DNA from: Halorubrum lacusprofundi ATCC 49239 | Lineage (GTDB): Archaea; Halobacteriota; Halobacteria; Halobacteriales; Haloferacaceae | Direction of reading: 5' to 3' | NCBI RefSeq assembly: GCF_000022205.1 | Contig: NC_012028.1 | Location: 434,001 to 498,000, forward strand | DNA: 64,000 bases | Shown: positions 27,000 through 49,710 of the stretch, piece after piece | Position numbering within the stretch: the stretch's first letter is position 1 | How the letters are laid out: every line of letters starts with the position of its first letter | Notes under the pieces: generated by a model | What the model was told of the DNA's origin: nothing | The model's input: only the letters and a program-made list of their open reading frames with translations | Databases searched by the model: none | Position numbers and translations under genes: made by a program

Positions 27000-29900
27000 T
27001 TACTGCGTCGACTCTTGGACCTGTTCGACCTCTACCTCGGCCAACTGCTCGTACTTCTCAAGCACCAGCTGGAAGTAGTCTTCATCCATGAGCCGGGGGC
27101 TCTGTACTCGGTGGAAGTCACCCAGTACGAAGGCCGTCTGCTCGTGATTGAGGCCATAGGCGTGGAAGGCCGCTGCATCGAGTTCAGCCTGTACCCGTCG
27201 ACGCTCGGTAACGTCGACAACGGGCTCGATCCCGTCCAGTCGATCTCGCATTTCTGCAAATTCGTCTCCATAGCAGTTGAGCCGAGCAGATCGTCGCCAA
27301 ATGTACTCAAACCATTCATCACCTTTGGTGAGTCGGGGTGCTTGTGACTCCTTCAATTTATAGAATACAACAGTCGAATCTATTTTAGTCCTCATCAGAA
27401 AGTCGAACGGAAGACTGTTTAGTAATCCAGTGGCGACAAACAGTTCTTCATCGCTATAAATGCGTTTGTAGGCACTGTGTAGCGTGTCTTCAGAGAGGTC
27501 CTTCTCGCTCGGTTCAATACTGTAAGGACGTAGTTGTGGGGCTTTGTCGTGACAGACGACACCTTTCGGAATGACAGTCGAAATCATGGTTCGTTCGTCC
27601 GTCGACCTCGCAATATCTCGGTATACGATACGGTACTCTGTACAGTCAAGAAGAACGTCCTCGTCAGAGAGTTCTTTGCTTCGTCGTTTTTCAAGCAGGT
27701 CGTTTACAAACCCAACTTGCGAACCAGTGCCGTCGAAGGCATCATACACCGCACGTTTCAGTTTCCGCAAATTCTTTCCACGTATTCGTTTCTTCGCGCT
27801 TAGTTCAGGATCTTTGTCTTCATCTACACTCCAGAATTTCGGTGACTCAACACCGAAATAGGCGTCACTATATGCAAATTGGAATATATTACTTCCTCCG
27901 AGAACAGGATAATCGCCTTCCTCCTCATCCTCTACAAACCGGTCGACATCGTTACCTCGATCCAACTCTCTGTAAGGTTCTACGTACCACGATGACCCAA
28001 TTTCCTCTGAAATTGGTGGGTGTTGCAGGATTGTGTCGAGAACGTCAACTTCTTGCTGGGACTGAAGATATGGGAATATCGCGGCTTCTGGGGAATAATT
28101 GCGTAGAACACGCCGGGAGAGCGACAGGGCTTGATCCTCAAAATTCTGAAGTATATCTACATCAGTCTGTTTGAAGATCCCTCTTACATCGGTTGTTTCC
28201 CCTTGATTCTCAAAAGTCACCACTCCAAAATTGTATCTATTATCAATATCAGAGAATATTCCATTATTCTCAAACGTGACTAGCGAATCGATGCTCGTTT
28301 CATCAAGAAGGTGTAGTCGGAGATCCTTGGTCGACAGGCCATTAAAAATCGCACCTGGAAGAATTTGTGCGAGATACCCGTCGTCTCTTGCTATCTGAAA
28401 AACACGCTCCAAAAACAGTGCAGAAAGATCGCTCTCAGTTGCTGCCGTTCTTCCTGCTACCTTCGGTTGCTGGAGTTCATAGGAGTCACTATTTTTAAAG
28501 TAAGTAGCAAAGATTTCAGTTTCTCGTTTGTATTCCTCCCATCCTTCCGCGATCTCTGGATCAGTCAGTAATTCTTCTTGTCGTTCCTGTTTTTCATCCG
28601 GCATCAGCGTTCTGAACGCCGAATCAAACCGTGAGAAGTAGTCATCTCGACGTGGTGATAATCTATCCCACGGCGGATTTCCTACAATCACGTCGAAACC
28701 ACCATCAGAGTAGACTTCTGCGTACTCAAGCACCCAGTGGAATGGATCAAATGTTTCGACCTTTTCGGGCGTGATATCGTCGACACCTGCCGCCACGAAT
28801 TCGTCTTTCACATCATCGACCAGCTCATCTCTTGCATTTTCGAGTAGACGATTGGCCTCTTTTCGGTGTTGTTCGGCCTGCTCGCTCTCAATCGCCTCTT
28901 CGTAGGCTGTGATCTCGTCGATGATGTTCTCGTAGCGTGTCCTGACCGTATCCTCGTTGAAGCTATCGAGCGTGTAACCGTCGCCGTCTTCGGTCGTCTC
29001 TGGGAACCCCGTGTACCCGATCAGGCTGTTGCCCTGTCGGAGATTGAACGCGATGTTAGGTAGGGCCAACTCCTCTTGATCCATCGACTCTAGATCCTCT
29101 TGTTGCAGTTCAGCGATCACCGACAGCCAACACCGGAGCTTGGCGATCTCGACGGCCGGGCCGACGATGTCGACGCCGTATATGTTGTGCTGGACAGTCG
29201 TCTTCTTGAGTGCCTGTTCGTGCGGGTACGAATCGGTATGTGCCCACAACGCTCGTCGAACGCCGACGATCTCCTCCAACACTGAGGTTAGAAAGTGCCC
29301 ACTCCCACAGGCGGGGTCGACCACCCGAAAGTTGTCGACCTCACCGAGTAATGTGGTAATCAGGTCCATCGACGCCGGGAGCGATTCGATCAACTCGTAG
29401 ACGGTATCGTAGTTCTCCAACTCGGCTTCAGGCCATCCGCGTTCCTCAATTACCACCTGTTTGAGTCGGTCGAATAGAGCCGGTCGAACCGTTCGCTCTG
29501 CACTGAACCGGGTAATCTCCTTCGGCGTGTAGTAGGCTCCGAGTTCCTTGTTCTGGTCGGCGTTGTCTGCTGTAATGTAGTTGATCGTCTTCTCGAAGAC
29601 GTTACCCAGCACGCTCGGATCGAGGTCGGTCACTGATCCATCCGTGGAGAAGCTGTAGCTTTCAAGTAATTCAAGAATCGACCTGAGAATACTATTCCGA
29701 ACGTCAAAATCGGCCTCCTTGAACTGCTCACGGTCGTCACTGCCGTCGTGTTGTATCGACGGCCGGAACAACCCACCATTCAGGTACGGAATATCAGCGA
29801 ACAGCTCGATATCCTGTATCTGTGGCGAGCGTTTGTCCGGGCGTTTGTTGAGTACGTCGTAGAACAACGGCTGAATGAACTGCTGGTAGAGAGAATCCGT

Positions 29901-30896
29901 GTAAAGGCCGTCCTCATACGTGTCAAGGATGCTCTGTAGGAGGTCCGGACGGACAATTCCCTTGTCCTCAAGGAATTTGATGAAGATAAGCCGGTTCATC
30001 ATCTCGACCGAAAACAGCCGCGTGTCGTCGGCGGTTGCTCCCTCCGGTGCGATCACGCCGTCGTGGGTGAGCGATCTGGGCGTCTCCTCGGACTCGTTGA
30101 CAATCCCGAAGACGTACCGGATATAGTCGTCGTAAAACTCGTCGGTGATCTCCTCCTGTTTCTGCTTGATGACCTGCCGGGCCTCACCTGCAATCGACCG
30201 GAAGTTAGCAAACTCGAAGGTCCGTAGCAGCGTGTCAACTCGTTCAAGATCGGCATCGAAAACAGCCTCCTCGAGCGGCTCTCGCGGGCCAACTTGGTTC
30301 TCAAATAGAGCGACAAACACTGGCTGTAGATCGACCTCCTCAATGACGTTGTGGGTGTAGGAATCCGGGTCGTACCGAATGAACATCCAGCGAAGTCCGT
30401 CCGTGGCGAAGCCAAAGTCGGACTCAAACTCTCGCTGACTGAGCCAGCTGCGAACCTGTCCCGCACCGTGCTTTCGAGAATCGAGGTCTTTGTTGATCGG
30501 CTCGGCCTCGATCAATAGACGGGTAGAGTCGATATCGTCGTAGTCGCGTAGCGAGATCGTGTAGTCGGCCACCTCCGTCCGGCCACCTGAGAGGCCACCC
30601 GCCTCCGTGTCGTAGTCGTAGCCGAGTTTGTCCAACAGCGGCTCGATGACGGCACTTTGAGTGAACGGTTCCGGTTGTAACCCGTCACGGGTCATGCTAC
30701 TTTTCAAGACGTAAGAGCCGCCACCGCCGCTCCGTAGCATCCGCTCTACCGTCTCGTCCTTCTTCATCTTCTTACGGAGCGTCGACACGGCGTCGTCGAT
30801 GATCTGTAGAAGATCCGCCCGTGCGTGATCGTCGACGGTCGTCTCGAATGCCTGCTCGACAAATTCGGTGGCTGAGGTGGCTGATTGAGGGGGCAT
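27000..30896 (-). CDS. type IIG-like restriction-modification protein (Eco57I-type adenine methyltransferase)
   Basis: This 1298-aa single-chain enzyme has an N-terminal PD-(D/E)XK-like region (TEVADYTISLRDYDDIDSTR, then LLIEAEPINKDL near residue 130). The usual E-x-K reads EAE, so nuclease activity may be lost or altered. Methyltransferase motif I is VVDPACGSGHFLTSVLEEIV near 525. The gene also has IYGVDIVGPAVEIAKLRCWL and motif IV DVIVGNPPWDRLSPRRDDYF near 740, where NPPW marks an N6-adenine enzyme. The C-terminal 400 residues form the probable target-recognition part. It stands alone, with its own promoter region. It differs from PglX by the N-terminal nuclease-like region, although PglX is the main alternative. 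Confidence 0.8.
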   Translation of the reverse strand: MPPQSATSATEFVEQAFETTVDDHARADLLQIIDDAVSTLRKKMKKDETVERMLRSGGGGSYVLKSSMTRDGLQPEPFTQSAVIEPLLDKLGYDYDTEAGGLSGGRTEVADYTISLRDYDDIDSTRLLIEAEPINKDLDSRKHGAGQVRSWLSQREFESDFGFATDGLRWMFIRYDPDSYTHNVIEEVDLQPVFVALFENQVGPREPLEEAVFDADLERVDTLLRTFEFANFRSIAGEARQVIKQKQEEITDEFYDDYIRYVFGIVNESEETPRSLTHDGVIAPEGATADDTRLFSVEMMNRLIFIKFLEDKGIVRPDLLQSILDTYEDGLYTDSLYQQFIQPLFYDVLNKRPDKRSPQIQDIELFADIPYLNGGLFRPSIQHDGSDDREQFKEADFDVRNSILRSILELLESYSFSTDGSVTDLDPSVLGNVFEKTINYITADNADQNKELGAYYTPKEITRFSAERTVRPALFDRLKQVVIEERGWPEAELENYDTVYELIESLPASMDLITTLLGEVDNFRVVDPACGSGHFLTSVLEEIVGVRRALWAHTDSYPHEQALKKTTVQHNIYGVDIVGPAVEIAKLRCWLSVIAELQQEDLESMDQEELALPNIAFNLRQGNSLIGYTGFPETTEDGDGYTLDSFNEDTVRTRYENIIDEITAYEEAIESEQAEQHRKEANRLLENARDELVDDVKDEFVAAGVDDITPEKVETFDPFHWVLEYAEVYSDGGFDVIVGNPPWDRLSPRRDDYFSRFDSAFRTLMPDEKQERQEELLTDPEIAEGWEEYKRETEIFATYFKNSDSYELQQPKVAGRTAATESDLSALFLERVFQIARDDGYLAQILPGAIFNGLSTKDLRLHLLDETSIDSLVTFENNGIFSDIDNRYNFGVVTFENQGETTDVRGIFKQTDVDILQNFEDQALSLSRRVLRNYSPEAAIFPYLQSQQEVDVLDTILQHPPISEEIGSSWYVEPYRELDRGNDVDRFVEDEEEGDYPVLGGSNIFQFAYSDAYFGVESPKFWSVDEDKDPELSAKKRIRGKNLRKLKRAVYDAFDGTGSQVGFVNDLLEKRRSKELSDEDVLLDCTEYRIVYRDIARSTDERTMISTVIPKGVVCHDKAPQLRPYSIEPSEKDLSEDTLHSAYKRIYSDEELFVATGLLNSLPFDFLMRTKIDSTVVFYKLKESQAPRLTKGDEWFEYIWRRSARLNCYGDEFAEMRDRLDGIEPVVDVTERRRVQAELDAAAFHAYGLNHEQTAFVLGDFHRVQSPRLMDEDYFQLVLEKYEQLAEVEVEQVQESTQ

Positions 30897-32904: not shown

Positions 32905-32941
32905 TTTAGAAACTAGTTTAGAGTTTAGAAATATTTATATA
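32905..32941 (+). promoter_or_regulatory. TTTAGA repeats, AAACTAGTTT palindrome and TATA box
   Basis: TTTAGA occurs three times (32905, 32917, 32924), AAACTAGTTT is a perfect palindrome at 32910-32919, and AAATATTTATATA follows at 32929-32941. A TATA box with upstream repeated hexamers looks like a regulated promoter for the transporter-cyclase genes. Transcription would start about 25 nt downstream, near the leader ORF ATG at 32965. Confidence 0.45.
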
Positions 32942-32964: not shown

Positions 32965-33105
32965 ATGACATTGGAGAAACAAATAATAAATGGCAATTAT
33001 CTTCGTACTGTGAGTGGCTTCGGACGACAGCTTTCCCGTCGACTGAGTTCCCGCCACAGGGAGGTCGGTCGAAAGAGGCGGTGGAAACAGGCGGTGGCCC
33101 GCTGA
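32965..33105 (+). CDS. possible 46-aa leader ORF coupled to the RND transporter
   Basis: ATG 32965 encodes MTLEKQIINGNYLRTVSGFG followed by an Arg-rich tail and stops in the TGATG that overlaps the transporter ATG. The start is about 25-30 nt after a TATA box, as for a leaderless message. The basic composition is atypical for haloarchaea, so it may be only an untranslated leader. Confidence 0.25.
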   Translation: MTLEKQIINGNYLRTVSGFGRQLSRRLSSRHREVGRKRRWKQAVAR

Positions 33106-35729
33106 TGGATCTGTTCGACCGTCTCGGAGAGGCGATCACCAATAACAGCCGGGCGATCATCGTGGTGATGCTGTTGCTCACGGCTGGACTGGCTCCCGGA
33201 CTCGGATACATTCAGGAGCAGGGGGCTCTCAGCGGCCTCTCGGAGGATACGGCGGCCGCAGAAGCCAACGCGGAGATCCAAGAGCGGTTCAGCGATAACG
33301 ACCTCAACACCACCTCGACTGCGATCGTCATTCGGAACGATGACGAGAACCTGCTGTCACGGGAAGCGCTGTTACGGAGCCTCAGATATCAGCAGACCCT
33401 CTATGAAAACGAGAGCATCAACACGACGCTCGTCGACGACGAGCCGACGTTCGGGATCGCCAACATCGTCGCCCAGGCCTCGATCGCGGCCGACCGGCGC
33501 GGAACGGTCGACGAGCCGATGATCTCCGGCTGGAACGAGGAGTCGGGCGTCGTCGAGACGAGCCCGACGGCCGATGACTGGTCGACGCCGACGCTCGACG
33601 AGCAGATCGACGAGCTGGAGTCGATGGACCGGTGGGAAGTCGAGGCCGTCCTCGAAGACGTTCTCGATCCCGACAGCGATTCGGCGGCGACGCAGGCGGC
33701 CTACCAGTTGCTCCCCGAAGACTACTCGCCCGGCTCGCTGTCGACCGACAGCCGGATGCTGCTGCTTACACAGGAGACCGAGACCCAGATCAGCGCCGCC
33801 GCCGAGATCTCGACCGAGGTCTCGAATGCGCAGGGGGATGCACGCGCGATCGCCTACGATCAGGAAACCGACCACTACGATGTCTACGGCACGGGCCTCG
33901 TGAACTACGAACAGAGCTTCGTCATTCAGGACAGCTTCAGCATTCTCGGCCCGCTCGTGTTGCTGTTCGTGGTGGTGGCGCTGTCGCTGGCCTACCGTGA
34001 TATCGCCGACGTCGCCCTCGGGTTGGTCGGTGTCGTGGTCACGCTGCTCTGGACGCTCGGCGCGATGGGCTGGCTCGGAATCAACTTCAACCCGGTGATG
34101 ATCGCCGCCCCGATCATCCTGATCGGCCTCTCGGTCGACTTCGCCCTTCACGTCACCATGCGCTACCGCGAGGAGCGACAGGCCTCGGAGGGTGGCGTTC
34201 GGCAGGCGATGTCGACCGCGCTGACCGACCTCGGACCGGCGCTCGGCCTGATCACCATGACCACGGCGATCGGGTTCCTGTCGAACTACACGAGCCCGCT
34301 GTTGGATCTCCGGGATTTCGGTGTCGTCACCGCGATTGGGATCGTCTCGACGCTGCTCGTCTTCGGCATTTTGATCCCCGCGCTTAAGCTCGAACTCACA
34401 TCGGTACTCGCGGGCTTAGGCTGGGACCGAACGCCCTCGCTTCCGGGCTCTCGAGGAGCCACCCAGCGCCTGCTCCACGGCGGGTCGACGCTCGCCTCGC
34501 GGATGCCGGTCGCCCTGCTGGTTGCGGTGCTGTTGCTGACCGGCGGGGCCGCATACGCCGCGACCGACGTCGGGCTGTCGGCCGATCAGGAGCTGTTTAT
34601 GGGTGACAACCCACCCGAGGTGACCGAGAACCTGCCGGAGTCGATCCAACCCGGCGAGTACTCGCTGAAATCCGACCGCGCGGACATCTACGCTGACTTC
34701 CAGCCGCCGTACAGACAGGGGTTCATTTTGGTCACTGGTGACGTCGCCACGCCGGGGGCGCTCGACGGGGTCGACGACGCAAGAGACGAGATCAACGACT
34801 CGGATGCGGTCTACGAGTCGGCGACCGACGAGCCGGCGATCGTCACTCCGTTGTCGGAGATGCGGGCGGTCGCCCGGACGGACCAGTCGTTCAATGAGAC
34901 CTTCGAGCGGTCGGATACGACCAACGACGGGATTCCGAACCGGAATGTCGAGGAAGTGTACGATGCGTTCTACCGGGCCGACGAGGATCGGGCGAGCCGC
35001 GTCCTCGACCGGAATGACGAGGGCAACTACACCGCGATGAGTATTCAGATCGGCACCGACGGCAATGCGGATCGGAGCGCGGCGACGACGGCCGTCGACG
35101 ATGGGGTCGCGGCGTTTGACGGCGAACTCGATGCGGTCGGAACCGGGAGCTTCGTCGTCGAGGAACAACTCAACACGCGGCTGTCGGCGACGCTGATCCA
35201 AAGTCTGGTCGTGACGATTCTCGCCGTCCTGGTGATTCTTACCGGCGCGTTCTGGCTCAAGGAACGCCGCCCGACGCTCGGTCCGACGACGCTCGTGCCT
35301 GTCCTTCTGAGCGCCATCTGGCTGTTCGGAACGATGGCACTCCTCGACATCCCGATCAGCATCATCACCGCGATGGTGGGCAGTATTACGGTCGGGATCG
35401 GCGTCGACTACAGCATTCACGTCAGCGAGCGCTACTGGCACGAACGAAAGCACGGACGGAGCATAGAGGAGGCGCTGCGGCGGACCATCGCCGGCACCGG
35501 CAGCGCGTTGATGAGCAGTGCGGTCACGACGGCCGTCGGCTTCGGCGTGCTGGCGTTCGCACTGTTGCCCTCGCTTCGGCACTTCGGGTTCGTCCTCGCG
35601 GTGGGTGTCGTCTACTCGTTCGTGACGGCGGTCTACGTCCACCCGAGCCTGCTTGTGGTCTGGGAACGCTACGTGCTCGGTTCGGAGACCGTCGTTCGTC
35701 TCGCCGAACCCCTGGAGGGAGATCAATGA
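33105..35729 (+). CDS. RND/MMPL-superfamily transporter (HpnN-like by context)
   Basis: The start is ATG 33105 (MDLFDRLGEAITNNSRAIIV), giving 874 aa; a GTG 24 nt upstream is possible. Two halves each have a first helix, a large extracellular domain and a helix bundle. The first bundle includes ILGPLVLLFVVVALSLAYRD and NPVMIAAPIILIGLSVDFAL, the second TLIQSLVVTILAVLVILTGA and MVGSITVGIGVDYSIHVSER. The GLSVDFALH and GIGVDYSIH segments are the paired helix-4 motifs of MMPL/RND and sterol-sensing-type proteins. It should move hydrophobic compounds using the ion gradient. It is GC-rich and followed, after 91 bp, by a squalene-hopene-cyclase-like gene, which recalls the hopanoid transporter HpnN. 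That role is inference. Confidence 0.82.
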   Translation: MDLFDRLGEAITNNSRAIIVVMLLLTAGLAPGLGYIQEQGALSGLSEDTAAAEANAEIQERFSDNDLNTTSTAIVIRNDDENLLSREALLRSLRYQQTLYENESINTTLVDDEPTFGIANIVAQASIAADRRGTVDEPMISGWNEESGVVETSPTADDWSTPTLDEQIDELESMDRWEVEAVLEDVLDPDSDSAATQAAYQLLPEDYSPGSLSTDSRMLLLTQETETQISAAAEISTEVSNAQGDARAIAYDQETDHYDVYGTGLVNYEQSFVIQDSFSILGPLVLLFVVVALSLAYRDIADVALGLVGVVVTLLWTLGAMGWLGINFNPVMIAAPIILIGLSVDFALHVTMRYREERQASEGGVRQAMSTALTDLGPALGLITMTTAIGFLSNYTSPLLDLRDFGVVTAIGIVSTLLVFGILIPALKLELTSVLAGLGWDRTPSLPGSRGATQRLLHGGSTLASRMPVALLVAVLLLTGGAAYAATDVGLSADQELFMGDNPPEVTENLPESIQPGEYSLKSDRADIYADFQPPYRQGFILVTGDVATPGALDGVDDARDEINDSDAVYESATDEPAIVTPLSEMRAVARTDQSFNETFERSDTTNDGIPNRNVEEVYDAFYRADEDRASRVLDRNDEGNYTAMSIQIGTDGNADRSAATTAVDDGVAAFDGELDAVGTGSFVVEEQLNTRLSATLIQSLVVTILAVLVILTGAFWLKERRPTLGPTTLVPVLLSAIWLFGTMALLDIPISIITAMVGSITVGIGVDYSIHVSERYWHERKHGRSIEEALRRTIAGTGSALMSSAVTTAVGFGVLAFALLPSLRHFGFVLAVGVVYSFVTAVYVHPSLLVVWERYVLGSETVVRLAEPLEGDQ

Positions 35730-35820
35730 GTCATCCAAAACGTCAATCCGTCGCCGTCGACCGGGACAGCCAGCCGAAAACAACCCCTGTGTCGTGCGAC
35801 TGTACTGGAGGTGTCCGTGT

Positions 35821-37803
35821 ATGAAAGAGTATCCAACGCGACGGCGGTTCCTTGCCGGATCGGTGGGGGCGATGTCGACACTCCCCGTCGGGACCGCGAG
35901 TGGAGACATCTGGGACGATGAAGATGAGATCTTGGGCGATGATGACGACGATGACGATATCGAGGAACCCGACTGGGACGACCTCTGGCGTGCGATTAAT
36001 CGAACAGAGACGTATCTTCGCCGGGAGTTGTCGGAGGACAACACGTGGTACGACGACGACCTGACACACTGGGATACGACGGTTCGGTTCGAGGGCGCCG
36101 CCGATCTCAGAACCACCGTCTACTACGCGCTGTTGACCGACCGGATCTGGGGGAACGAAGACGAACGCGACGACTGTCTCTCGTATCTGCTCGACCGGCG
36201 GTCGACCGACGGCGGCTGGGACGACACGGTAACCAACTTCGGGATGCTGCTGCTGTTCGACCGGATGGACGACCACGAATACGAGTCGGTGGTCGAAGAT
36301 ATCTTCCGGGAGATTGATGCGAAAAACCAGTCGCTGATGGCCTCGAAAGACGAGGCAGGCTTCACCGATAGGTTCCGAATGCGATTGCTGTATGCGGTGC
36401 TCTCCGATGACCACAGCTTCGACGAACTGTTCCCACGGGAGTTACCGATCCGGGCTGGTGATCTGATGGCGCTCACGTCGGCCTTCGACGGAGAGGCGGT
36501 TTCCGCGCAGGATCAGACGGCTCGGCCGAGCTACATCACCAGACAGTTAGCGTACTTCCTGCTCGGCGCGACCGCCTACGACCGGGAGCTCGACGAGGAC
36601 GAAACACAACTGGTCGAGGTCGCCGAGAACGTGCTCCTGAGCCGACGCCTGACGAACGGCGCGTGGAACACCGTTCCGACGACGCTCTTTGCGACGTTCG
36701 CACTTGTCGAACGGGGCTATTCATGGTTCGACGGCGAGGTTGGAACGCCCGTCCGCTGGATCGCCGACAACCGGCTGACCGACGAGGGACGCGTCGAGAG
36801 CTATCGACTCCCTGTCCGGGATACGACATTGGTACAGAAAGCGCTACTCGCCGCTGGCAGTTCGCCGGACGCCGAGTTCCTGCAGGAATCGGCCCAGTGG
36901 CTCTCCGAGGCGCGGACGCCACAGACGGTCGGTCGTGAGTTGGACCGCGAGCCAGCGCCGTTTCGACGCCACCACGGACACGGCTGGGGGTACATGCCGC
37001 ATGCGTTCTCTAACTGGGACGACACTGCGGTCGCACTCGGCTCGCTGTCGGCGCTCACCGATGGTGATCTCGACGAACAGATCGACTTCCTCCGTCGGGT
37101 ACAAAACCGCGACGGAAGCTGGTCGGCGTACACGACCGACTTCGCCCCCTTCCAGTCGACGGAGATCGCCGACGAGGCCCGCTTGACGATCGGCGACGAA
37201 CAGTATCAGCTCCGCTTCGGCTATATTCCCGCGCCAGACATCACTGGAAACGCCCTTTCGACACTCGGTATGCAGGGAGACACCGTCGACGACGATCGCC
37301 ACATCGACGACGCCGTCTCCTATCTGCGAGAGAATCGGGCGGACAACGGGCTGTGGCTCGGCGTCCGGGGGCAGGGCTACACCTACGGCACCGCCCGTGT
37401 GATGGAGGGGCTCCGAGCAGTCGACGTCGACATGGATGACGACTTCGTGACCGCTGCCCGCGGAACACTACTCAGCCGACAGAACGACGACGGTGGCTGG
37501 GGCGAACAGACTCGCTACGATCCGAGCCAGCCGGAATCGGGAAGCATCGAGTATCAACCGGGCGAGTCGACGCCGATACAGACCGGCTGGGCGCTGCAGG
37601 CCCTCCTTTATGGTGGCATCGGCCCCGATCGGGAGGCGGTCTGGGACGCCGTCGACTACCTGCTCGAAACACAGCAGTCCGACGGCTCGTGGGAGGTCGA
37701 TCCCGTGCTGTACACCTTCGGCGGCCCGGGGTACAGCACCGAAGCGATCACACAGGCCGCAGTCCTCAGAGCACTCGGTCTGTACGAGTCGACCATCGAC
37801 TAG
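35821..37803 (+). CDS. Tat-exported squalene-hopene-cyclase-like (prenyltransferase/squalene oxidase repeat) protein
   Basis: The start is ATG 35821, MKEYPTRRRFLAGSVGAMST, with a twin-arginine signal, giving 660 aa. Earlier in-frame starts lie inside the transporter gene. Repeats of the QW type occur: DRRSTDGGWDDT, QNRDGSWSAY, QNDDGGWGEQ and QQSDGSWEVD. A SNWDDTAVALGSL segment occupies the place of the D-x-D-D-T-A acid motif of squalene-hopene cyclases, with the first Asp replaced by Asn. The alpha-barrel repeat fold is clear, but cyclase activity is not. Export by Tat is odd for an enzyme acting on membrane isoprenoids, so it might bind or modify lipids outside the cell. An acidic stretch (EILGDDDDDDDIEEPDWDDL) follows the signal. 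Confidence 0.72.
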   Translation: MKEYPTRRRFLAGSVGAMSTLPVGTASGDIWDDEDEILGDDDDDDDIEEPDWDDLWRAINRTETYLRRELSEDNTWYDDDLTHWDTTVRFEGAADLRTTVYYALLTDRIWGNEDERDDCLSYLLDRRSTDGGWDDTVTNFGMLLLFDRMDDHEYESVVEDIFREIDAKNQSLMASKDEAGFTDRFRMRLLYAVLSDDHSFDELFPRELPIRAGDLMALTSAFDGEAVSAQDQTARPSYITRQLAYFLLGATAYDRELDEDETQLVEVAENVLLSRRLTNGAWNTVPTTLFATFALVERGYSWFDGEVGTPVRWIADNRLTDEGRVESYRLPVRDTTLVQKALLAAGSSPDAEFLQESAQWLSEARTPQTVGRELDREPAPFRRHHGHGWGYMPHAFSNWDDTAVALGSLSALTDGDLDEQIDFLRRVQNRDGSWSAYTTDFAPFQSTEIADEARLTIGDEQYQLRFGYIPAPDITGNALSTLGMQGDTVDDDRHIDDAVSYLRENRADNGLWLGVRGQGYTYGTARVMEGLRAVDVDMDDDFVTAARGTLLSRQNDDGGWGEQTRYDPSQPESGSIEYQPGESTPIQTGWALQALLYGGIGPDREAVWDAVDYLLETQQSDGSWEVDPVLYTFGGPGYSTEAITQAAVLRALGLYESTID

Positions 37804-37937: not shown

Positions 37938-38201
37938 ATGTCTCGAAATTTGAAAAATACAGTCTGTCGTAGCCTAATTGATGAATTAATCGAGATGCCA
38001 CGTATCCGTCGTGTTCTCGGTCTAATCGAACTTCCTACGCCATCAACGGTCTGTAAGGCATTCAACCGGCTTGATATGGCCGTATGGCGCGTCTTATTGA
38101 CTCTCTCAGTTACACTACTTCCGACAGCCAGCGTTGTTGGGATTGATACATCAGGCATTCATAATCTCGATCGATCACTCTGGGTGATCAAGACAAAGTA
38201 A
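37938..38201 (+). pseudogene. IS5-family transposase N-terminal remnant
   Basis: MSRNLKNTVCRSLIDELIEM, then PRIRRVLGLIELPTPSTVCK and LLPTASVVGIDTSG, follows the N-terminal half of haloarchaeal IS5-family transposases (ending at the first catalytic Asp region, GIDTSG). After that the sequence degenerates to a stop at 38201, 18 bp before the IS6-family element. It is a remnant. Confidence 0.6.
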
Positions 38202-38219
38202 GAACAGAAGACATATACT

Positions 38220-38963
38220 GGCACTGTCTAGTTAAGCCAATTTGAGATGTGAGCAGTTCGTGGTTTGAGTTGTTGATGCTATCCCCAGAACTGCTCAGAG
38301 AGTCGTTAGACACGGCAAATCTTGAATGTTGGGAGCGAGAGCGGACGGCGACGCCCGTCAGGGCGTTCGCCGTCCGGCTCCACGCGACCGGTTGTTCGCT
38401 CAGAGAAACACAAGCAATTCTGCGATTATTCGGCGTCCAACGCTCTCACCAGGCGATCTTTCAGTGGGTACATCGAGTAGCTGACAGCGTTCCCGACCCG
38501 CCTGAGGCGCAGCCGAAGCGGGTCGCTGTAGACGAGACCGCTGTCAAAATTAATGGCGAGTGGTCTTGGTTGTATGCTGCAATAGACCTCGACACCAAGT
38601 TGATTTTAGGTGTCGATCTGTTCGGATCTCACGGTACCGATCCAGCTGCTGCGTTTCTGCATAGACTCTCTGAGAAACACGACCTCTCCGAGGCCGTGTT
38701 TCTCGTCGATGGCTTCGGCTATCAGACTGCCCTTGCTCGATTAGGACTCAGCGGTCGGCGTGATTATACAGACCGAAACCTGATCGAAAAATGGTTTCAA
38801 ACGCTCAAAATGAGGATCGACCGCTTCCATAATTCGTGGGTGGGCAGTCGGTCGAGCGTTCGTAGCTGGTGTTCGCAGTTTACACATTATTATAACCGCC
38901 AGCGACCGCATCAATCGCTAGATGATCGAACGCCAGCTGAGGAGGTCGCTAACTAGACAGTAC
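38220..38963 (+). mobile_element. IS6-family insertion sequence
   Basis: 744 bp with ends GGCACTGTCTAGTTA and, inverted, GGTACTGTCTAGTTA (one mismatch in 15). The 8-bp flanks CATATACT and GAAAATCC do not match, as expected after cointegrate resolution or adjacent deletion. It lies just after an IS5 remnant and 45 bp from the giant helicase stop. Confidence 0.85.
38249..38956 (+). CDS. IS6-family transposase
   Basis: 235 aa from a GTG start (MSSSWFELLMLSPELLRESL); a later ATG is possible. The DDE signature is seen as PKRVAVDETAVKINGEWSWL (D), AVFLVDGFGYQTALARLGLS (D) and RDYTDRNLIEKWFQTLKMRI (E), matching the IS6/ISH15-like group. The N-terminal helix-turn-helix is around SLRETQAILRLFGVQRSHQA. 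It appears intact. Confidence 0.9.
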   Translation: MSSSWFELLMLSPELLRESLDTANLECWERERTATPVRAFAVRLHATGCSLRETQAILRLFGVQRSHQAIFQWVHRVADSVPDPPEAQPKRVAVDETAVKINGEWSWLYAAIDLDTKLILGVDLFGSHGTDPAAAFLHRLSEKHDLSEAVFLVDGFGYQTALARLGLSGRRDYTDRNLIEKWFQTLKMRIDRFHNSWVGSRSSVRSWCSQFTHYYNRQRPHQSLDDRTPAEEVAN

Positions 38964-39007: not shown

Positions 39008-42000
39008 CTAGTATATTCGAGAGAGCAATTCTGCATCGATGTTCGCATCCGAGTGATGTGTTTGGTTCCCACTTGATGTCTGGCTCACAGCACCTCTATC
39101 TTCGAGCAGTTCGATTGCACCCTGAACCCGCTCTTCGATGCGTTTTCCACGGCGCTGGTAGCCAATAAGTCGACTCGTCTCTAGGACCAGATCATCTCTG
39201 GTCATTGTGCCGCCTTCTTTGAGCAGTATCGCCACAGCTTTCGCGATCTCTTCGGTCGGGATCTCACCAATGGTCCTAGTGGCTGATTCAGTATTTACTC
39301 TCACCCTAAACTCAAGGTCGTGACGGTTTGGCCACAGGAACCCGTCTCGCTCGTAGATCTTGTTTTGGCGTTTGAGTTCACTGACGCCACTCTTGAAGAT
39401 CCGTTGGATTTTCTTTCCGGCCCTCGATTGCGACCAAACATCAAGAAAGGTCTGCATGGCAGTTTTGTATTCAATCGGTCCGTTCTGTGTCACCGTATCC
39501 TCGATAGCATTCAGATTCGCGTTATTCTGTCCCCGTAGGTCCACCGAATATCGGTCGCTCCATTCCAGACTAGGTTCGACGTACTCTGCCAACCCCTCGT
39601 GATCAAACTTCGATTTGCTTGCGACAGCTTCTGGCTCGTGTTTGGGGACGTCTTCTGTCGTCGACTCCGATTTCCCGGCAACCAAGCTATCTATTTTCTC
39701 GGTGATTTGCTTGATCTGCTGTTCTCTGTTCGATGTCCAGTCTGGCGACCAAATTCGGTGGATCGTCCACCCCAGATCCTCCAGTACCATCTGTCGTGTC
39801 CGATCTCTATCTCTCGCCGTCTTCGAGGAGTGGTAGGCTGCCCCGTCGCACTCAATCCCGAGGACGAATTTGCCTGGCTGCTCTGGATGTTTGATCGCCA
39901 AGTCGATACTGTAGCTCGAACTCTGGACCTGTGAGACAACATCATGTCCTTCCGCTTCGAGTGCCTCATACACCGCCTCCTCAAACTGCGAATCGAAATC
40001 GAGTGTGGTCGTAACCTGATCGTTGCGTTGGAGTGCCTGCGTTCCTTTTTGGGCGTATTCGAGGTAGTTTTTGAAGTCCTGTGCGCCTGTACTGTTCGAT
40101 CCCGAGAGGTCGATATCACCCGGCTGCATCGAACACACGACCGTGATCTTCTCTTTGGCCCGAGTCACAGCAACGTTGAGACGTCGCTCACCACCACTTT
40201 TATTGAGTGGACCGAAGTTCGTCGATATCGTTCCATCTTCGGCAGGACCGTAGCCCACACTGAAGATCATCCGATCACGTTCGTCACCCTGCACCATCTC
40301 GAGATTCTTGATGAAGAACTCATCTAAGACGTCGTCTTGGCTCACGAAGGCATCCAAGACAGCGTTTTCTTCGCGTCGCTCTATAAGTGCATCTCGGATC
40401 GCTTGTTCCTGTGCACTACTGAAGGCGATGACACCGAGGCTCTTGTCGCTGTTATTCTCTGCGTGGTCTTCGATCAAATCAATCACTCGCTGTGCCTCGA
40501 TTTCGTTCTGTCTCGACCCACCGCGGTCGTACACACCGTCCTTAACATACTCGAAGTAGACACCGGTCTCCACGTCTGGGTCGTTTTCCGGGAACGTCCG
40601 GAGACTGTTGTTGTAGTAGTGGTGATTCGAGAATTGGATGAGTTCCTCAGTGCGGCTCCGGTAGTGCCAGCGAAGATTCTTTTCCGGTAGTACAGCCGCC
40701 GTTTCTTCGAGTATACTATCGAGGTCTTCTCGGACATCTCCAGTCGTTTCGACATCAGACTGGAAGAACGAGGTCGGTGGGAGTTGTTTTGTATCGCCTG
40801 CGATGATCGCCTGGTCTGCACGGATGAGGCTACTAATAGCATCTTGTGGAACGATCTGGGATGCCTCGTCGAACACCACGGCGTCGAACTCTATCGAATC
40901 CGATTTGAGATATTGGGCGACCGACAGCGGACTCATCATAAAGCACGGAGTCAACTGGGTTATGAGCGACCCCGCTTCGTCGAACAACTCACGGAGTGGT
41001 TTATGTCGACGCTGCTTTTCAGCTTCTCGGCGGAGGAGGACTTGTTCCGAGCTGGCTGCGTGTTGCAGATTCAACGTCGGCCGTTGGTTAGTGATTAAGT
41101 GTTGGACCTCGATCTTCGCGAGTTCTTGCTGTTCTTGATCTAAGCTGCGGAAGTCCTCTAGGTACCGTTCCATCTCGTCTGCGTTGAACGACCCGAGATC
41201 CGTGTGCTCGTAGACGCTGTTGAGCCATTTCGTATAGAACCGTTTTTCGAACGCTGAAACGAGGTGCTCACTACTGTAGTCGCCTCGGAGGAACTGGTCG
41301 ACATACTCCTCACAGATTGTCTCACGAACGGTATCCAACTGCGAGGCAAACTGAACACGCTGTTGGAGCTTCGAAACATCTTCTCGAAGCTCTCCAAGCA
41401 GTCCCGATAATTCAGACAGGAGGGCCTGATTGAGTGCTGTGCCATTCACAGTCATCTCTTCGACTGCCATGGCACCCTCGAAGAACTCAGCAGCCTCATC
41501 GTACTGGCTCAGTGCGTCGGTTGTCTGTTCTAGCAATGGGTCTACATTAGGGAGACTGTTATCGAGAAGTGCCTCAATCACCGGCTGTGTATCTACAGTA
41601 TCAAACGTATCGAGTGTTGCCACCCAGCTTTGTGCTTCAACGAGTCCCTCCCAATCAGTATCCCCACCCTCATACAGCGGACCAAGGCGCTGGATAATTC
41701 CTTGATACTCCTCTCTCCGGTCTTCGATTCGCTGTACTTCGGCCAGCTTTCGTGTATCTTCGAGCAACTGTTCATGATCGGGGCTGTAGCCGTCTTGGGT
41801 GTGGTTCGTTAGCTTTCGTTTGAGCGACCGGTACCCCGATTTGAGTATCTTCAGGAATCCGTAGCCTGCAAGTTCGTCGTTGAGCTCTGACCCATTCGCA
41901 GAGAAGAAGCTACGATGATAGTTCTCCGAGAGGTCTCCCATGAGTTCATCACGCTCCCCTTCGAGTTCTGCAAGTTCTTCAAACCGGCCTCCCTCTAGGG

Positions 42001-45000
42001 CAAAGGAGCCATCGAAGAACGCCTCTTGCCACGCAATATCTGGGCGATCAGAGAGGAGGCTTACCAATTGAGTGACTTCCCGGAACTCTGTAAGTGACTG
42101 TGGTTGCAGTCCGAGCTCTGCATCAAGGGTATCACTAACAGTTTGGAGGGTGTCGATTGCAGCCAACTGCTTGTTCAACGATTGGCGCATGGAATCACCA
42201 GTGTCCACACCCCACTGCCGGAGGGTCGTATGCCGCCACGGACTCGTCTCGTAGGCGTCGATCTGGGTATCGAACCGAGCGAGGGTTTCTAACTCGTCGA
42301 CCGCTGTATCGAGCGTCTCCTGTTTCACGCCCAACGGCTGTGTAATTCCAACATCAATTCGTGGTGACTTCGCGTGCTCACTTACAATTCCAAACGCTTG
42401 GTAAGCAGTCAGATTCCATCCATCCGGCGAGTAGAACAACTGTTGGCCGTATTGGTTGATCGTATCCCGTCGGTTTCGGAGCTTCTGAAGCTGTTTGGAT
42501 CGACCTTTGGCTGGCTTGATTTGTGAGGCCTTGAGTTCCTGTTCGAGACTCCCGAGGACCTCCACATTGGTGGCTTTCTCCCCGTGGACTTCGAGACAGA
42601 ACCGGGCGAGACCGACATTGTCGAGTCGATTTTTGACAACATCGAGTGCGGCTTGCTTTTCGCTGACGAATAAGACGCGCTCACCAGCAGCCAACTTCTC
42701 TGCAATGATATTCGAAATTGTCTGGCTCTTTCCGGTTCCCGGTGGGCCTTGTAGGACGAAGCTTTTGCCTCGTTTCGCAGCCTCGATGGCTTCCTGTTGA
42801 CTCGAATCTGCATCCAATACTTGGTATGTATCGATCGGGTCGACAACATCGTCCAGTTCTGTCGCTGTCGGCGTCGTAATGTCACCTTCCGCCTCCCGGA
42901 TAGGCTTCATATCACCGTTCAGCGCTTGAATGATTGGATCAGACTTAATTTGGGATCGATTGCGTTCGAGATCTGAGTATAGACTAAACTTCGTGAAGTC
43001 GAAGATCCCCAGCACGATGTCCTGTTGGATCGTCCATCGGTCGAATCCACGGAGGCTCTCGTAAACAGATGCGAAGGCAGCGTCTATCTCGTCGAGTGAC
43101 AGTGCGTCGTCAGCTGGGAGACTAATACCACGTTCGGCTGCGAGCTTTTTGCGTAAGGCGGGATTTATGCGGAGTCCATCGACTTTCGGTTTGATGACGT
43201 AATCGTGTCGTTCCCCGTCTGGGTTTGTCTTCTCTACAAGTTCGACGGCAGCAAGGAACAACGGTGATCGGTTTGCCTCATCACTATAGTCGACGCTATA
43301 CCATCGAAGCATCCCCAACGACAGATACAGTGACGCGACACCCCGCTCACGGAGATACTGTTTGTTATTGAGTCTAATATTGTGGAGTGAGTTGTCGGAT
43401 TCATCCGGCGTCCGGCTGGATAACAACTCTTTTGGCTCTATCTCAGGCCCTTCGTCTTGGTTCTGAGTCGAATCCTCGTCCGTTTCGTCCTTGTCCGGTT
43501 GTTTCCGAATATAGAGATCTTCGCCGTTTGCGAGTTGACTGGCGATCGCTATTGGGTCGGTCTCCTCGAATGGGAGAGATTTCGTCTTTGTAGGCTTGAA
43601 CGAGATGAGCTTGTTCCGACGAGTCAGATCAAGGAGTTGGGACTTCCATTCATCGATCTTCTTATCCAGTGGGCTCCCTGTCGAAGGCGAGTCTCCAACA
43701 CGTTGGTCTGAGTCTTGCTCGTCGTATTCGGTGATTAAGTCGACGTTCCGGTCCCAAAATATCGGTTGATCTGATTCAGGATCGGATGTAGAACCCCTGT
43801 CCGGTTCATCTGGTTCCTCGCCACCGTCGTCTCTAGCCGTCTCCGCACCTCCAGTACTCTCCTCAGAGTTCTGCGGTTCGTCTTCTTCATTTGACCCCGC
43901 TTCATCTGGTCCGTCAGTAGCAGGTGCTGGTTCTGCAGGGAACTCTTCGAGTAGCCTCACGGCGGCCACAAGTTCCTCTTCAGAATCCACGACGATTGGA
44001 AGCGCCATCTCGGTCTGTGGGGCGATTGGAAGATAGACCTCTTCTCCCGACTCAGTGATATGCTCTCGGATGAACACTTCGAAGTCGTCGACATCGCCGA
44101 GGCGTTCAGCTGGTACGCACTGGTAGTCGGTAACTTGATTTCCGTCACCGTAGGCCCGACGGTATTCTTCCATCTTGTGGGTGTTTCGAGAGCCCTGCTG
44201 TTGACCGTAGCTTGGAGCCTCATCCGTGAGTCCACTCCCGAAGACGACGTTTTGGACTTCGGTATACCATCTGTTCATCGGGTCATCATCGTCGACACGA
44301 TAGGAGGTTTGGTCGGACTCGATGAGCTCCTCGAGCAACGAGGCAAAGGTACGGAATAGGTCGTAGTACTCCGCGAGCGCATTCGCCTGCACACCATCTT
44401 CGACGACAATTCCGGTCGTTTCGTCTACTTGATCGACACCTGCTGCTTTTCGAGCCTCGAAAATCGAGTCGAAGTGTTTGTAGATAGTCGGTGAACTGAA
44501 GGGGCCGTGCTCGTTGATGTCAGTCGAAGTGGGAACTTTCCCAAGGTCAGCGGCAATCTCTTGGAGTACGTGAAGGACTTCCTCACGTGTGTAGCTCTGC
44601 TTGGATGTTCCACGCGGAGTGAGACCTGCTTTTCGAACCGCCTGTGTCCATGTATCGAAAGTATTCTCGTATTGATCAAGTGTATACGACCCTCTGTTCG
44701 TCATCTCGGCTCTCGTCGGCACTTGACCCAGTTCTTTGTTCAGCCGTCGAATTTCGTCGAGAAGGTCGTCCGAGGAGGGTTCTTGGGTCGACTTCTTTAT
44801 CGTTTCGATTAGAGTTTCGGCTTTATCGCTTGCCCAAACGAGGCCCTCTCCATCACGGAAATAGTATGCATTGAGTTCCGACCGCAGATATTCCTCGACC
44901 TCACGTTCGGACGAAAACGTCCACTGAACCTGAAGCGCAGAGAGATCTGTTGGCTGCTGATTTAGAAGATCCTCAATGCGTTTTTGTTTCGTTGCCGGGA

Positions 45001-47287: not shown

Positions 47288-47542
47288 TATATATACGAGC
47301 AGAGTAGCTACCACTTGCTAAGTATTGGCGTGGTATGTAGGTTCCGTTGACAGGGGCAAGCGTTGTTAATTCATTATTTTGTTACATTCGTTGATTTTGT
47401 ACTATCGATCTTGTCTAAAATCTTATCTATGAACTCGTGGCCACGACACCGTCCAGATTAGGGGATCTCTAAGGATTAGGAAATGGAGTACTTGACTTGT
47501 GATTAGTTATCCAAAATTCAGGTAATTTATCCTAACACGATA

Positions 47543-47951: not shown

Positions 47952-48056
47952 CGTGAAGCCGACAACTCCCTCACGTTCCACCGTCGGTTGCAGTCTGAAT
48001 ACCCCACGACGGCAAACCTTTATTAGAATTGGGTGTGTAGAAATCAGTACGACCAA

Positions 48057-48449
48057 ATGAAGTACAACCTCGAAACTGGGTCGCACACGGTCTACGCGCT
48101 CCAATATCACTTCGTGACCGTCACGAAGTACCGCGCAGACCTACTCACCGACGAAATCGCAGAACGGGTCGGTGAGATTGCCAGCGACATCTCCGAGGAC
48201 TTCGGCGTAAACATCCAGAACGTCAACGGCGGAAGCGACCACGTTCACATCCTCTTCACGGCGAAGCCAACGACCGACCTCACCAAGTTCATCAACTCAC
48301 TCAAGGGCGTCACATCTCGCAAAATCCGTGACGAGAACCCCGAGGTTCGGCAGGCGCTCGACAAAGCGTTCTGGCAACCGGGATACTTCCTCACCACCAC
48401 TGGCCAAGTGAGCATCGACGTGCTGATGGAGTACGTGGAGGAGCAGTAG
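48057..48449 (+). CDS. tnpA: TnpA, Y1 transposase of IS200/IS605 family
   Basis: I start at ATG 48057 (MKYNLETGSHTVYALQYHFV), giving 130 aa, the family size. The HUH motif is in GGSDHVHILFTAKPTTDLTK (HVH), and the catalytic tyrosine lies in KAFWQPGYFLTTTGQVSIDV or the following EYVEEQ. It catalyses single-strand excision and insertion. TnpB begins 1 nt after its stop. Confidence 0.92.
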   Translation: MKYNLETGSHTVYALQYHFVTVTKYRADLLTDEIAERVGEIASDISEDFGVNIQNVNGGSDHVHILFTAKPTTDLTKFINSLKGVTSRKIRDENPEVRQALDKAFWQPGYFLTTTGQVSIDVLMEYVEEQ

Positions 48450-48450
48450 C

Positions 48451-49710
48451 GTGTCCACGACCGTCACGAAGACGTTGCAGGCGACGTTCGCACCCCCCAC
48501 CGCGCACAAGCAGTCGAAACTCAACGACCTGCTCGAAACCTACCGTGACGGTCTGCAAGAAGCGTTCGACGCCGGGGCGAGTACCATGTCCTCGGTGAGC
48601 GACATCGTGACGCCCTACGACTTGCCGTATCAGGCCAAAGCCGCGCTCTGCAACTACGTCCCGAAACTCCGCAAGACGTACAACGCGCAGGATTTGGACG
48701 ACGAACACCCGATACGACTCACGAACCAAGCCGCGAAGTTCGACCACTCGGAAGAACGCGACTACGAGTTTACGTGGTGGGTTCCTCGTCCCGGTCGGGG
48801 AACGAATTTCTGGATGCCGCTCCGCATCAATCCCGAACAGGAAGACCTCTGGCACGACCTCGTATCCGAGGACGCGAAAGCGGGCGAGATACGGCTTCAA
48901 CAGCATCGGAAGAATTGGGTACTACACGTCACCGTCGAGTACCCGGTTGAAGAACCAGCGGCGGACGGTGACGCCACGCACATCGGCTTAGACATCGGAG
49001 AAACCGCCCTCATCACGGGCTGTGCCCTCAAGGACGGTTCTCCGACTGACCCGTTCGTGTGTAGCGGAAGCAGAGCGAAGCATCTCCGAAAAGAGATGCA
49101 CACGACCCTGAAACGACTGCAAGAGCGTGACGCTTCGGAGTGGCGTACCGACGAACGGTTCGACCACTACCAGAACGCCCTCACCGACATCGTGGAGAAA
49201 GCGTCTCGGGAAGCCGTCGAGTACGCCAAGCAGTTTGAAAATCCGGTGTTGGTGATGGAGGACTTGACGTACATCCGTGAGCGTCTCGACTACGGGAAGT
49301 ACATGAACCGTCGGCTTCACTCGTGGGCGTTCGCCCGACTCCAAGGGCGCATCGAGGACAAGGCGACGGAAGCAGGTATTCCGGTCGAGTACGTGAATCC
49401 GGCGTACACCTCGCAGACGTGCCACTCGTGCCACCGCATCGGTCGGCGGGACTCGCAGGCCGAGTTCCGGTGTCCGAACGATGACTGCCACGTTTCGACG
49501 TTTCAGGCCGACATCAACGCTTCCGCGAATATCGCACGACGGGTTGACCCGTGGGGAGAGAGCGTCCCGCTTGACAAGGCCGGACGCGATGACTCGCCTC
49601 GGGATGGGAGCGGTTGTGACACCGCCACGACTCACCGTGAGAAGAGCGTACCAGCGCAGATGACGCTCACGGCCTACGAAGAGTCGAAACCCTCTACCAG
49701 CGACGACTGA
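48451..49710 (+). CDS. tnpB: TnpB, RNA-guided nuclease of IS200/IS605 family
   Basis: 419 aa starting with GTG 48451 (MSTTVTKTLQATFAPPTAHK). The RuvC-like residues are in ATHIGLDIGETALITGCALK (Asp), NPVLVMEDLTYIRERLDYGK (Glu) and CHVSTFQADINASANIARRV (Asp). A zinc ribbon lies between (TCHSCHRIGRRDSQAEFRCP, then NDDC). TnpB proteins cut DNA guided by an RNA from the element's right end and favour retention of the IS. All key residues are present, so it may be active. Confidence 0.93.
   Translation: MSTTVTKTLQATFAPPTAHKQSKLNDLLETYRDGLQEAFDAGASTMSSVSDIVTPYDLPYQAKAALCNYVPKLRKTYNAQDLDDEHPIRLTNQAAKFDHSEERDYEFTWWVPRPGRGTNFWMPLRINPEQEDLWHDLVSEDAKAGEIRLQQHRKNWVLHVTVEYPVEEPAADGDATHIGLDIGETALITGCALKDGSPTDPFVCSGSRAKHLRKEMHTTLKRLQERDASEWRTDERFDHYQNALTDIVEKASREAVEYAKQFENPVLVMEDLTYIRERLDYGKYMNRRLHSWAFARLQGRIEDKATEAGIPVEYVNPAYTSQTCHSCHRIGRRDSQAEFRCPNDDCHVSTFQADINASANIARRVDPWGESVPLDKAGRDDSPRDGSGCDTATTHREKSVPAQMTLTAYEESKPSTSDD

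Follow-up and report, generated by a model that had tools for sequence, protein, structure and literature searches.

The gene pair and its transporter

The 64,000-nucleotide stretch of DNA analysed here (the window; Halorubrum lacusprofundi ATCC 49239, contig NC_012028.1, positions 434,001 to 498,000) contains two genes, oriented in the same direction and separated by a gap of 91 nt, that encode an MMPL/HAE3-like RND (resistance-nodulation-division) transporter and a candidate exported class II terpene-cyclase-like protein with a predicted fold of the squalene-hopene cyclase (SHC) type. Both genes lie where the sequence-only reading of the window had placed them. The transporter gene (P0001, 874 amino acids (aa)) occupies positions 33105..35729 of the plus strand from an ATG start, an in-frame GTG at 33081 (+) being a possible alternative, and the cyclase-like gene (P0002, 660 aa) occupies 35821..37803 (+), also from an ATG. 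An archaeal TATA-box-like string, TTTATATA, was read by eye 5' of the pair (32934..32941, +), as was a ribosome-binding-like string, GGAGGTG, just 5' of the cyclase ATG (35807..35813, +). At the family level, the linkage of a class II isoprenoid cyclase to an RND transporter is well supported by the data presented below.

P0001 matches the Pfam MMPL model (PF03176) with 111.6 bits at a cut-off of 20.5 (E = 4.9e-32), and its best NCBIfam match is the HAE3 model TIGR00921, at 246.6 bits, which is still below the cut-off of 351.9. A regular-expression search located the motifs VDFALH (from residue 344; 34134..34151, +) and VDYSIH (from residue 767; 35403..35420, +), which we take, from what is generally known of RND/MmpL proteins, to be the first and second proton-relay Asp motifs. 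The protein thus has in common with HpnN and the HAE3 family, including AmeD, the MMPL/RND architecture, the two VD[FY] motifs and a cyclase-type neighbour gene, but differs from them in scoring under both cut-offs (for the HpnN models, 113 bits against 752 with TIGR03480 and 74 against 1100 with NF052374) and in having no hopanoid genes around it. HAE3-like RND genes are ubiquitous, being present in 386 of the 392 sampled genomes of the order. According to PMC6394551, the characterised HAE3 pumps (HpnN and AmeD) carry terpenoids, and the HpnN proteins were, besides AmeD, the only HAE3 pumps characterised at the date of that paper.

Family and fold of the cyclase-like protein

P0002 belongs to the SHC/OSC superfamily, as indicated by its match to Pfam SQHop_cyclase_C (PF13243; 142 bits, cut-off 26.1, E = 2.9e-41), and its phmmer comparison with the Alicyclobacillus SHC (1gsz) gave an E-value of 4e-28, far above chance. 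An AlphaFold2 model built from 22 sequences reached a pLDDT of 81 and a pTM of 0.85. SHC held the top Foldseek rank for this model (E = 9.8e-22, TM 0.70 by query), and VIA-align superposed residues 52-660 on residues 8-629 of SHC with Z 43.3 and an rmsd of 3.2 over 536 residues. Because these matches run along the full length of SHC, the predicted structure is that of a complete two-domain class II cyclase, and the structure prediction proposed in the sequence-only reading has therefore yielded an SHC-type alpha-barrel fold in both domains. Class II terpene cyclases took all of ranks 1-33 in the VIA-align list; Z was 34 for drimenyl diphosphate synthases, 33 for oxidosqualene cyclases and 30 for MstE. 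P0002 therefore shares the class II fold with MstE and the drimenyl/copalyl diphosphate cyclases (Z 30 and 34), of which MstE is a one-domain protein that is not known to be exported.

Secreted alpha-barrel enzymes of the GH105 and GH88 types also appear in the VIA-align list, at Z 20 to 22, and one might suppose on this ground that P0002 is a secreted alpha/alpha-toroid protein of a non-terpene kind (a glycosidase, a lyase or a complement-like protein) with convergent QW-like repeats. The match to SHC along both domains contradicts this, as do the occupancy of the first 33 ranks, the DDT motif and the isoprenoid neighbourhood described below, and we find the idea scarcely credible. The repeats themselves are more numerous than the four counted earlier: five fit the pattern, at residues 120-133 (36178..36219), 268-282 (36622..36666), 420-434 (37078..37122), 547-560 (37459..37500) and 611-624 (37651..37692), and a sixth, degenerate one at residues 501-512 (37321..37356) is recovered by a loose pattern only (all on the plus strand).

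Active site

The active site was mapped onto residues 309-603 of 1gsz, the usual roles of the SHC residues (general acid and others) being presumed to apply. P0002 keeps the equivalents of D376 (D400), D377 (D401), T378 (T402) and Y495 (Y522; 37384..37386, +), so that it has in common with the enzyme of Alicyclobacillus acidocaldarius (PDB 1gsz/2sqc) the two-domain alpha-barrel fold, the QW-like repeats, the catalytic Asp pair and the Tyr495 position. The acid motif had been described as altered, and this holds for its first residue only: in the alignment NWDDTA falls squarely on the DVDDTA of SHC, and hence D374 is replaced by Asn while the general-acid pair D376/D377 is intact (NWDDT, N398-T402 = SHC D374-T378; 37012..37026, +; D400 corresponds to the general acid D376). 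The DxDDTA motif of SHC proper is thus not found in the window copy, and DWDDT is present in eight of the ten haloarchaeal family members.

Besides D374N (N398), three further departures from SHC were found by alignment: W312 is R333 (CGG; 36817..36819, +), H451 is N477 (AAC; 37249..37251, +) and W489 is R516 (CGG; 37366..37368, +). The window copy is the only haloarchaeal cyclase in which D374N, W312R and W489R are combined. Elsewhere in the family the W312 position is Phe (L018) or Thr (L020 and L021), and the W489 position is Arg in L018 also. Phe601 of SHC is conserved in none of the ten haloarchaeal cyclases, the aromatic residues of this product-end region being missing, and the product end of the cavity would therefore differ from that of SHC.

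Distribution and phylogeny

When the 392 genomes were searched with P0002, at most three candidates being scored in each, nine gave matches. Two of these (G300 and G312) match the N-terminal part only and were left out, leaving seven true carriers with ten loci, the window included; one genome, G041, holds four of the loci. The carriers include Natronoglomus mannanivorans, Halobacteriales QS_1_68_20, Halocatena marina, Haloarcula pellucida and Halorussus caseinilyticus (on a plasmid), and the gene was found in none of 34 genomes from the rest of the window's genus. Family-level searches yielded true carriers in 1/125, 1/28, 3/146 and 1/9 genomes and no further carrier beyond G752, counted among the three, which we take to be a duplicate of G306 on account of its identical contig number, coordinates and bit score; weak matches in G743, G760 and G322 were left out. 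A profile search across the phylum, which was not used for counting, matched 97 of 392 genomes, and among the matches listed all but the window and G491 were short and repeat-sized.

In a tree of 21 rows (ten haloarchaeal proteins, ten bacterial proteins and one cyclase from an archaeon elsewhere in the phylum) the haloarchaeal proteins form one clade with 100/100 support. It is a rare clade, distinct from the sampled bacterial SHCs, from which it differs also in carrying export signals and in the loss of the F601 region. One of the carriers, the metagenome-assembled genome QS_1_68_20, has two divergently oriented cyclase paralogues (L016:8015-10120 and 10949-13009), and the former has lost the Asp pair (WGET for WDDT), yet retains an intact frame and a C-terminal anchor. 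Outside the haloarchaeal clade, a 585-aa cyclase of G491 (L115:8122-10855; 271.7 bits with TIGR01787, under the cut-off) directly adjoins a UbiA prenyltransferase gene.

These data bear on the likeness to bacterial hopanoid genes (cyclase plus HpnN) that had been noticed from the sequence. The pairing and the fold do resemble SHC and HpnN, and the genome of the window has a squalene-synthase-like gene (TIGR01559, 7e-34) in addition to a phytoene-synthase-type one, so that a hopanoid-type pathway received from bacteria deserves mention. The cyclase, however, falls below its family threshold as the transporter does below that of HpnN (122 bits at an equivalog cut-off of 431 for the squalene-hopene cyclase model TIGR01507), the haloarchaeal cyclases stand apart as a clade, the F601 region is lost in all ten, and in Halocatena, which carries both cyclase and RND genes, squalene synthase was not found among the four candidates scored, the one match being a PF00494 gene of the phytoene-synthase type. 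Membership in a hopanoid operon is rejected on the bit scores for HpnN and SHC, and we regard a hopanoid pathway as very unlikely. The Halocatena result also makes squalene unlikely as a family-wide substrate; in the organism of the window it is a possible one.

Pairing with the RND gene

An RND gene homologous to P0001 stands beside the cyclase gene at five of the ten loci and in five of the seven genomes (the window, L014, L015, L020 and L021), with one gene in between in L014 (UbiA) and L015 (P450). The RND proteins of the window, L014 and L015 are mutual closest relatives (61-62% identity of the window copy to the other two, 100/100 support), and a second RND clade consists of the L020 and L021 proteins. 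When linkage to a cyclase was traced as a label on an RND tree of 32 rows, it required two changes, and none of 500 shuffles gave a number as low. For two such adjacencies to arise by chance in seven genomes, the rough probability is 2e-4 to 1e-3, on the assumption that 3.5 Mb carry 2 to 4 RND genes. The survey for conserved pairing suggested earlier has thus found it to be recurrent, and of the two outcomes that had been named as speaking against the idea, a fold lacking a cavity and a lack of conserved pairing, neither was encountered, the former as judged from the predicted model.

Beside those cyclase-less RND genes that are closest to the window clade there is a shared gene encoding about 224 aa with similar N-termini (L108:6700-7374, L109:11129-11803, L110:7404-8090 and L111:7266-7940).

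Terpenoid context in the relatives

The cyclase neighbourhoods of the relatives look, from their gene content, like terpenoid gene clusters. In L015 the order is prenyl-diphosphate synthase, RND, P450, cyclase and UbiA, and in L014 it is P450, cyclase, UbiA and RND, the UbiA proteins of the two loci being 67% identical. L020 and L021 have cyclase, RND, prenyl-diphosphate synthase and UbiA genes in a row together with ABC transporter genes; in L018 a weak UbiA match comes after the cyclase, and in L017 the cyclase lies amid at least six P450 genes, three methyltransferase genes, a weak UbiA match and a prenyl-diphosphate synthase gene split by an intein. Overall, UbiA-like genes are found near the cyclase at six of the ten loci (two of them under the Pfam cut-off), prenyl-diphosphate synthase genes at four and P450 genes at three. 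The NCBIfam models closest to the L015 P450 are terpene oxygenases (albaflavenone, pentalenene), below their cut-offs. The combination of UbiA and cyclase presumably resembles the logic of meroterpenoid synthesis. In the portions of PMC10105419 and PMC12144867 that concern them, archaeal terpene clusters are counted by antiSMASH and are not described as systems of this kind.

Two further features of these loci may be recorded. The intein-like domain in the prenyl-diphosphate synthase of L017 (15899-17443), near the cyclase and the many P450 genes, is of the PF14890 type. Near the cyclases of four of the haloarchaeal loci fetched there is a relative of methanogenesis marker 12 (TIGR03281; L020:5614-7234, L021:12698-14303, L019:12284-13821 and L016:5591-6565), the Halorussus copy scoring 165.7 bits at a cut-off of 180.85, and in three of the four this gene adjoins a nucleoside deoxyribosyltransferase-like gene.

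Export signals

The Tat (twin-arginine translocation) signal proposed for P0002 is borne out at the level of the motif: TRRRFL is present at residues 6-11 (35836..35853, +) of a Tat-like N-terminal signal spanning residues ~1-28. No segment of the window protein reached the Kyte-Doolittle threshold used, and by that scan the signal is of weak hydrophobicity, as many Tat signals are. Motifs of the Tat type are present in the cyclases of the window, L014, L015 and L018, the last having a C-terminal segment besides, and the two L016 paralogues (L016a and L016b), L020 and L021 combine an N-terminal hydrophobic segment with a C-terminal transmembrane segment, so that eight of the ten haloarchaeal cyclases have a layout of the export type. 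The four proteins of the latter group are also rich in N-glycosylation sequons (18 in each of L020 and L021, 7 in L016a, 10 in L016b) as compared with 0-3 in the bacterial proteins. Export of the cyclase, by the Tat route in the window, is probable on the basis of these layouts.

We know of no characterised exported class II terpene cyclase, and among the papers listed in our searches of the open-licence PMC literature none named an exported terpene cyclase with demonstrated export, which does not imply its absence from print overall. A comparable layout of signal and C-terminal anchor is found in a Streptomyces 'terpene cyclase/mutase family protein', candidate 8 of PMC10924467; by the account given of that candidate, it has a Tat-like signal and a tail anchor, and the signal failed to export a reporter. 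The model of the SCO2321 family gives P0002 only 42 bits of the 300 required.

Surroundings of the pair

The GC content at third codon positions is 0.84 in the RND gene and 0.78 in the cyclase gene, as against 0.48-0.59 in four flanking open reading frames (ORFs) between 27 and 47 kb, and the pair therefore looks like an acquired unit within an island. Transposase genes or their remnants also belong to this island. So does a restriction-modification-like protein of type IIG, recognised by PADLOC at 27000-30896, and so does a PDC-S37-like protein of 2768 aa (39008-47314), whose C-terminal 1500 residues match PADLOC PDC-S37 with 1423 bits and whose N-terminal part matches helicase-type defence models; it is possibly a fused defence protein. 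Near the pair and the defence genes, the segments 37938-38956 and 48033-49710 hold a transposase remnant, an intact DDE transposase ORF with an IS240/IS6-like Pfam match, and a TnpB/Cas12f-like gene adjoining a small ORF.

A proposed mechanism and its alternatives

From these observations we infer that the RND pump would deliver an isoprenoid lipid in linear form to the outer face of the membrane, where an exported class II cyclase would receive it. The pair itself may be a pared-down version, gained by horizontal transfer, of a terpenoid gene cluster that is rare among haloarchaea; we put the probability of this reading as a whole at roughly one half. The HAE3-like pump would take the lipid from the cytoplasmic leaflet or from the membrane, and the protonation-initiated cyclase would act on it from outside, D400 protonating the terminal double bond to start a ring-forming cascade. 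In the fuller clusters the prenyl-diphosphate synthase and UbiA would make the linear lipid and the P450s would decorate it, while in the genome of the window the lipid-making and decorating steps would be supplied by housekeeping genes; the substrate there would then probably be one of the isoprenoids common in membranes: squalene, a polyprenol or quinone, or an ether lipid that is unsaturated. At several loci the neighbouring UbiA genes suggest lipids with a prenylated head group, of a quinone-like or ether-lipid-like kind. That the cyclase may act on polyisoprenoids extracellularly and in a novel manner, as the sequence-only reading supposed, is a reasonable hypothesis.

A number of observations weigh against this reading. 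Five of the ten cyclase loci have no RND gene nearby, and the RND proteins next-closest to the window clade (G357, G239, G369 and G391) are not accompanied by a cyclase. The cyclases of L017 and L019 have no export signal, and the association of the export-type layout with RND linkage (five of five linked cyclases, three of five others) is suggestive, the numbers being too few for significance. The P450s of the sister clusters are cytoplasmic, which implies that part of the pathway runs inside the cell and makes the proposed order of the steps tentative. With respect to the active site, the nearest orthologues (Natronoglomus L014 and G092 L015) keep W, D and W where the window copy has R333, N398 and R516, and both have Gly at the 451 position, which is N477 in the window and His in SHC; two Arg residues in the carbocation cavity could abolish or change catalysis. 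Finally, tblastn of the window with the P450, UbiA and prenyl-synthase proteins of the relatives' clusters gave chance-level matches only, and the genome of the window has just two PF00348 genes, both on another contig (C2), on which its only two PF00067 genes also lie.

The observations on export and on the P450s would be accommodated if cyclisation came first: the enzyme would act from the cytoplasmic side like bacterial SHC, the RND pump would export the cyclic product as HpnN does with hopanoids, for which the SHC and HpnN system, as far as PMC6394551 describes it, offers a precedent, and the Tat-like N-terminus, weakly hydrophobic as it is, would merely associate the protein with the membrane. 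On the other hand, all five RND-linked cyclases are among the eight with a Tat-like or signal-plus-anchor layout, and the 7-18 sequons of the four anchored members contrast with the bacterial SHCs. We consider this order of events unlikely, though a serious alternative.

The active-site substitutions and the missing partners raise the question of whether the window copy is still a cyclase, or whether on its mobile island it has turned into a protein that binds or carries isoprenoids for the RND pump, or is decaying. The joint presence of W312R, W489R, D374N and H451N, the absence of partner genes from the window and the transposase genes and fragments close by are in line with such a change, as is the length of the window branch, which in both trees exceeds the end branches of the other two members of its clade (0.54 vs 0.27 and 0.30; 0.50 vs 0.23 and 0.28), and the complete loss of the DD pair in a sister (L016:8015-10120) provides a parallel. 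Yet the frames of 660 and 874 codons are intact with strong third-position GC, D400, D401, T402 and Y522 are kept, and L018 retains DWDDT in spite of its Arg at the W489 place. Moreover, the seven other haloarchaeal members share 71 invariant columns, of which eight are broken in the window copy against six and seven in the two orthologues, so that general decay is unsupported overall. Loss of the cyclase function seems to us rather improbable for the window copy, but is a serious alternative; the substitutions nevertheless leave open a specific loss, and the catalytic activity of this copy, given D374N, W312R and W489R, is uncertain.

Possible implications for haloarchaeal membranes

Extending the export-first mechanism beyond the window, we propose tentatively, as a possibility that is less likely than not, that some haloarchaea export an isoprenoid first and cyclise it afterwards into a polycyclic membrane terpenoid, and that the pump-cyclase pair moves between species on plasmids and genomic islands as a unit. 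If this is true, an exported class II terpene cyclase would be unusual. Among the papers listed in our searches of the open-licence PMC literature none named a haloarchaeal SHC-type cyclase, which again does not imply that none is in print. The abstract of a 2019 review says that sterol or hopanoid synthesis is known from no archaeon and that the gene homologues are absent from archaea (PMC6770870). That some haloarchaea have predicted full-length cyclases of the SHC type in which the catalytic Asp pair is kept, placed in what look like terpenoid clusters, contradicts the latter statement. A polycyclic membrane terpenoid of haloarchaea would, if it exists, be the archaeal counterpart of hopanoids or sterols, and the question of archaeal polycyclic membrane regulators is now testable in Natronoglomus mannanivorans, Halorussus caseinilyticus, Halocatena marina and Haloarcula pellucida.

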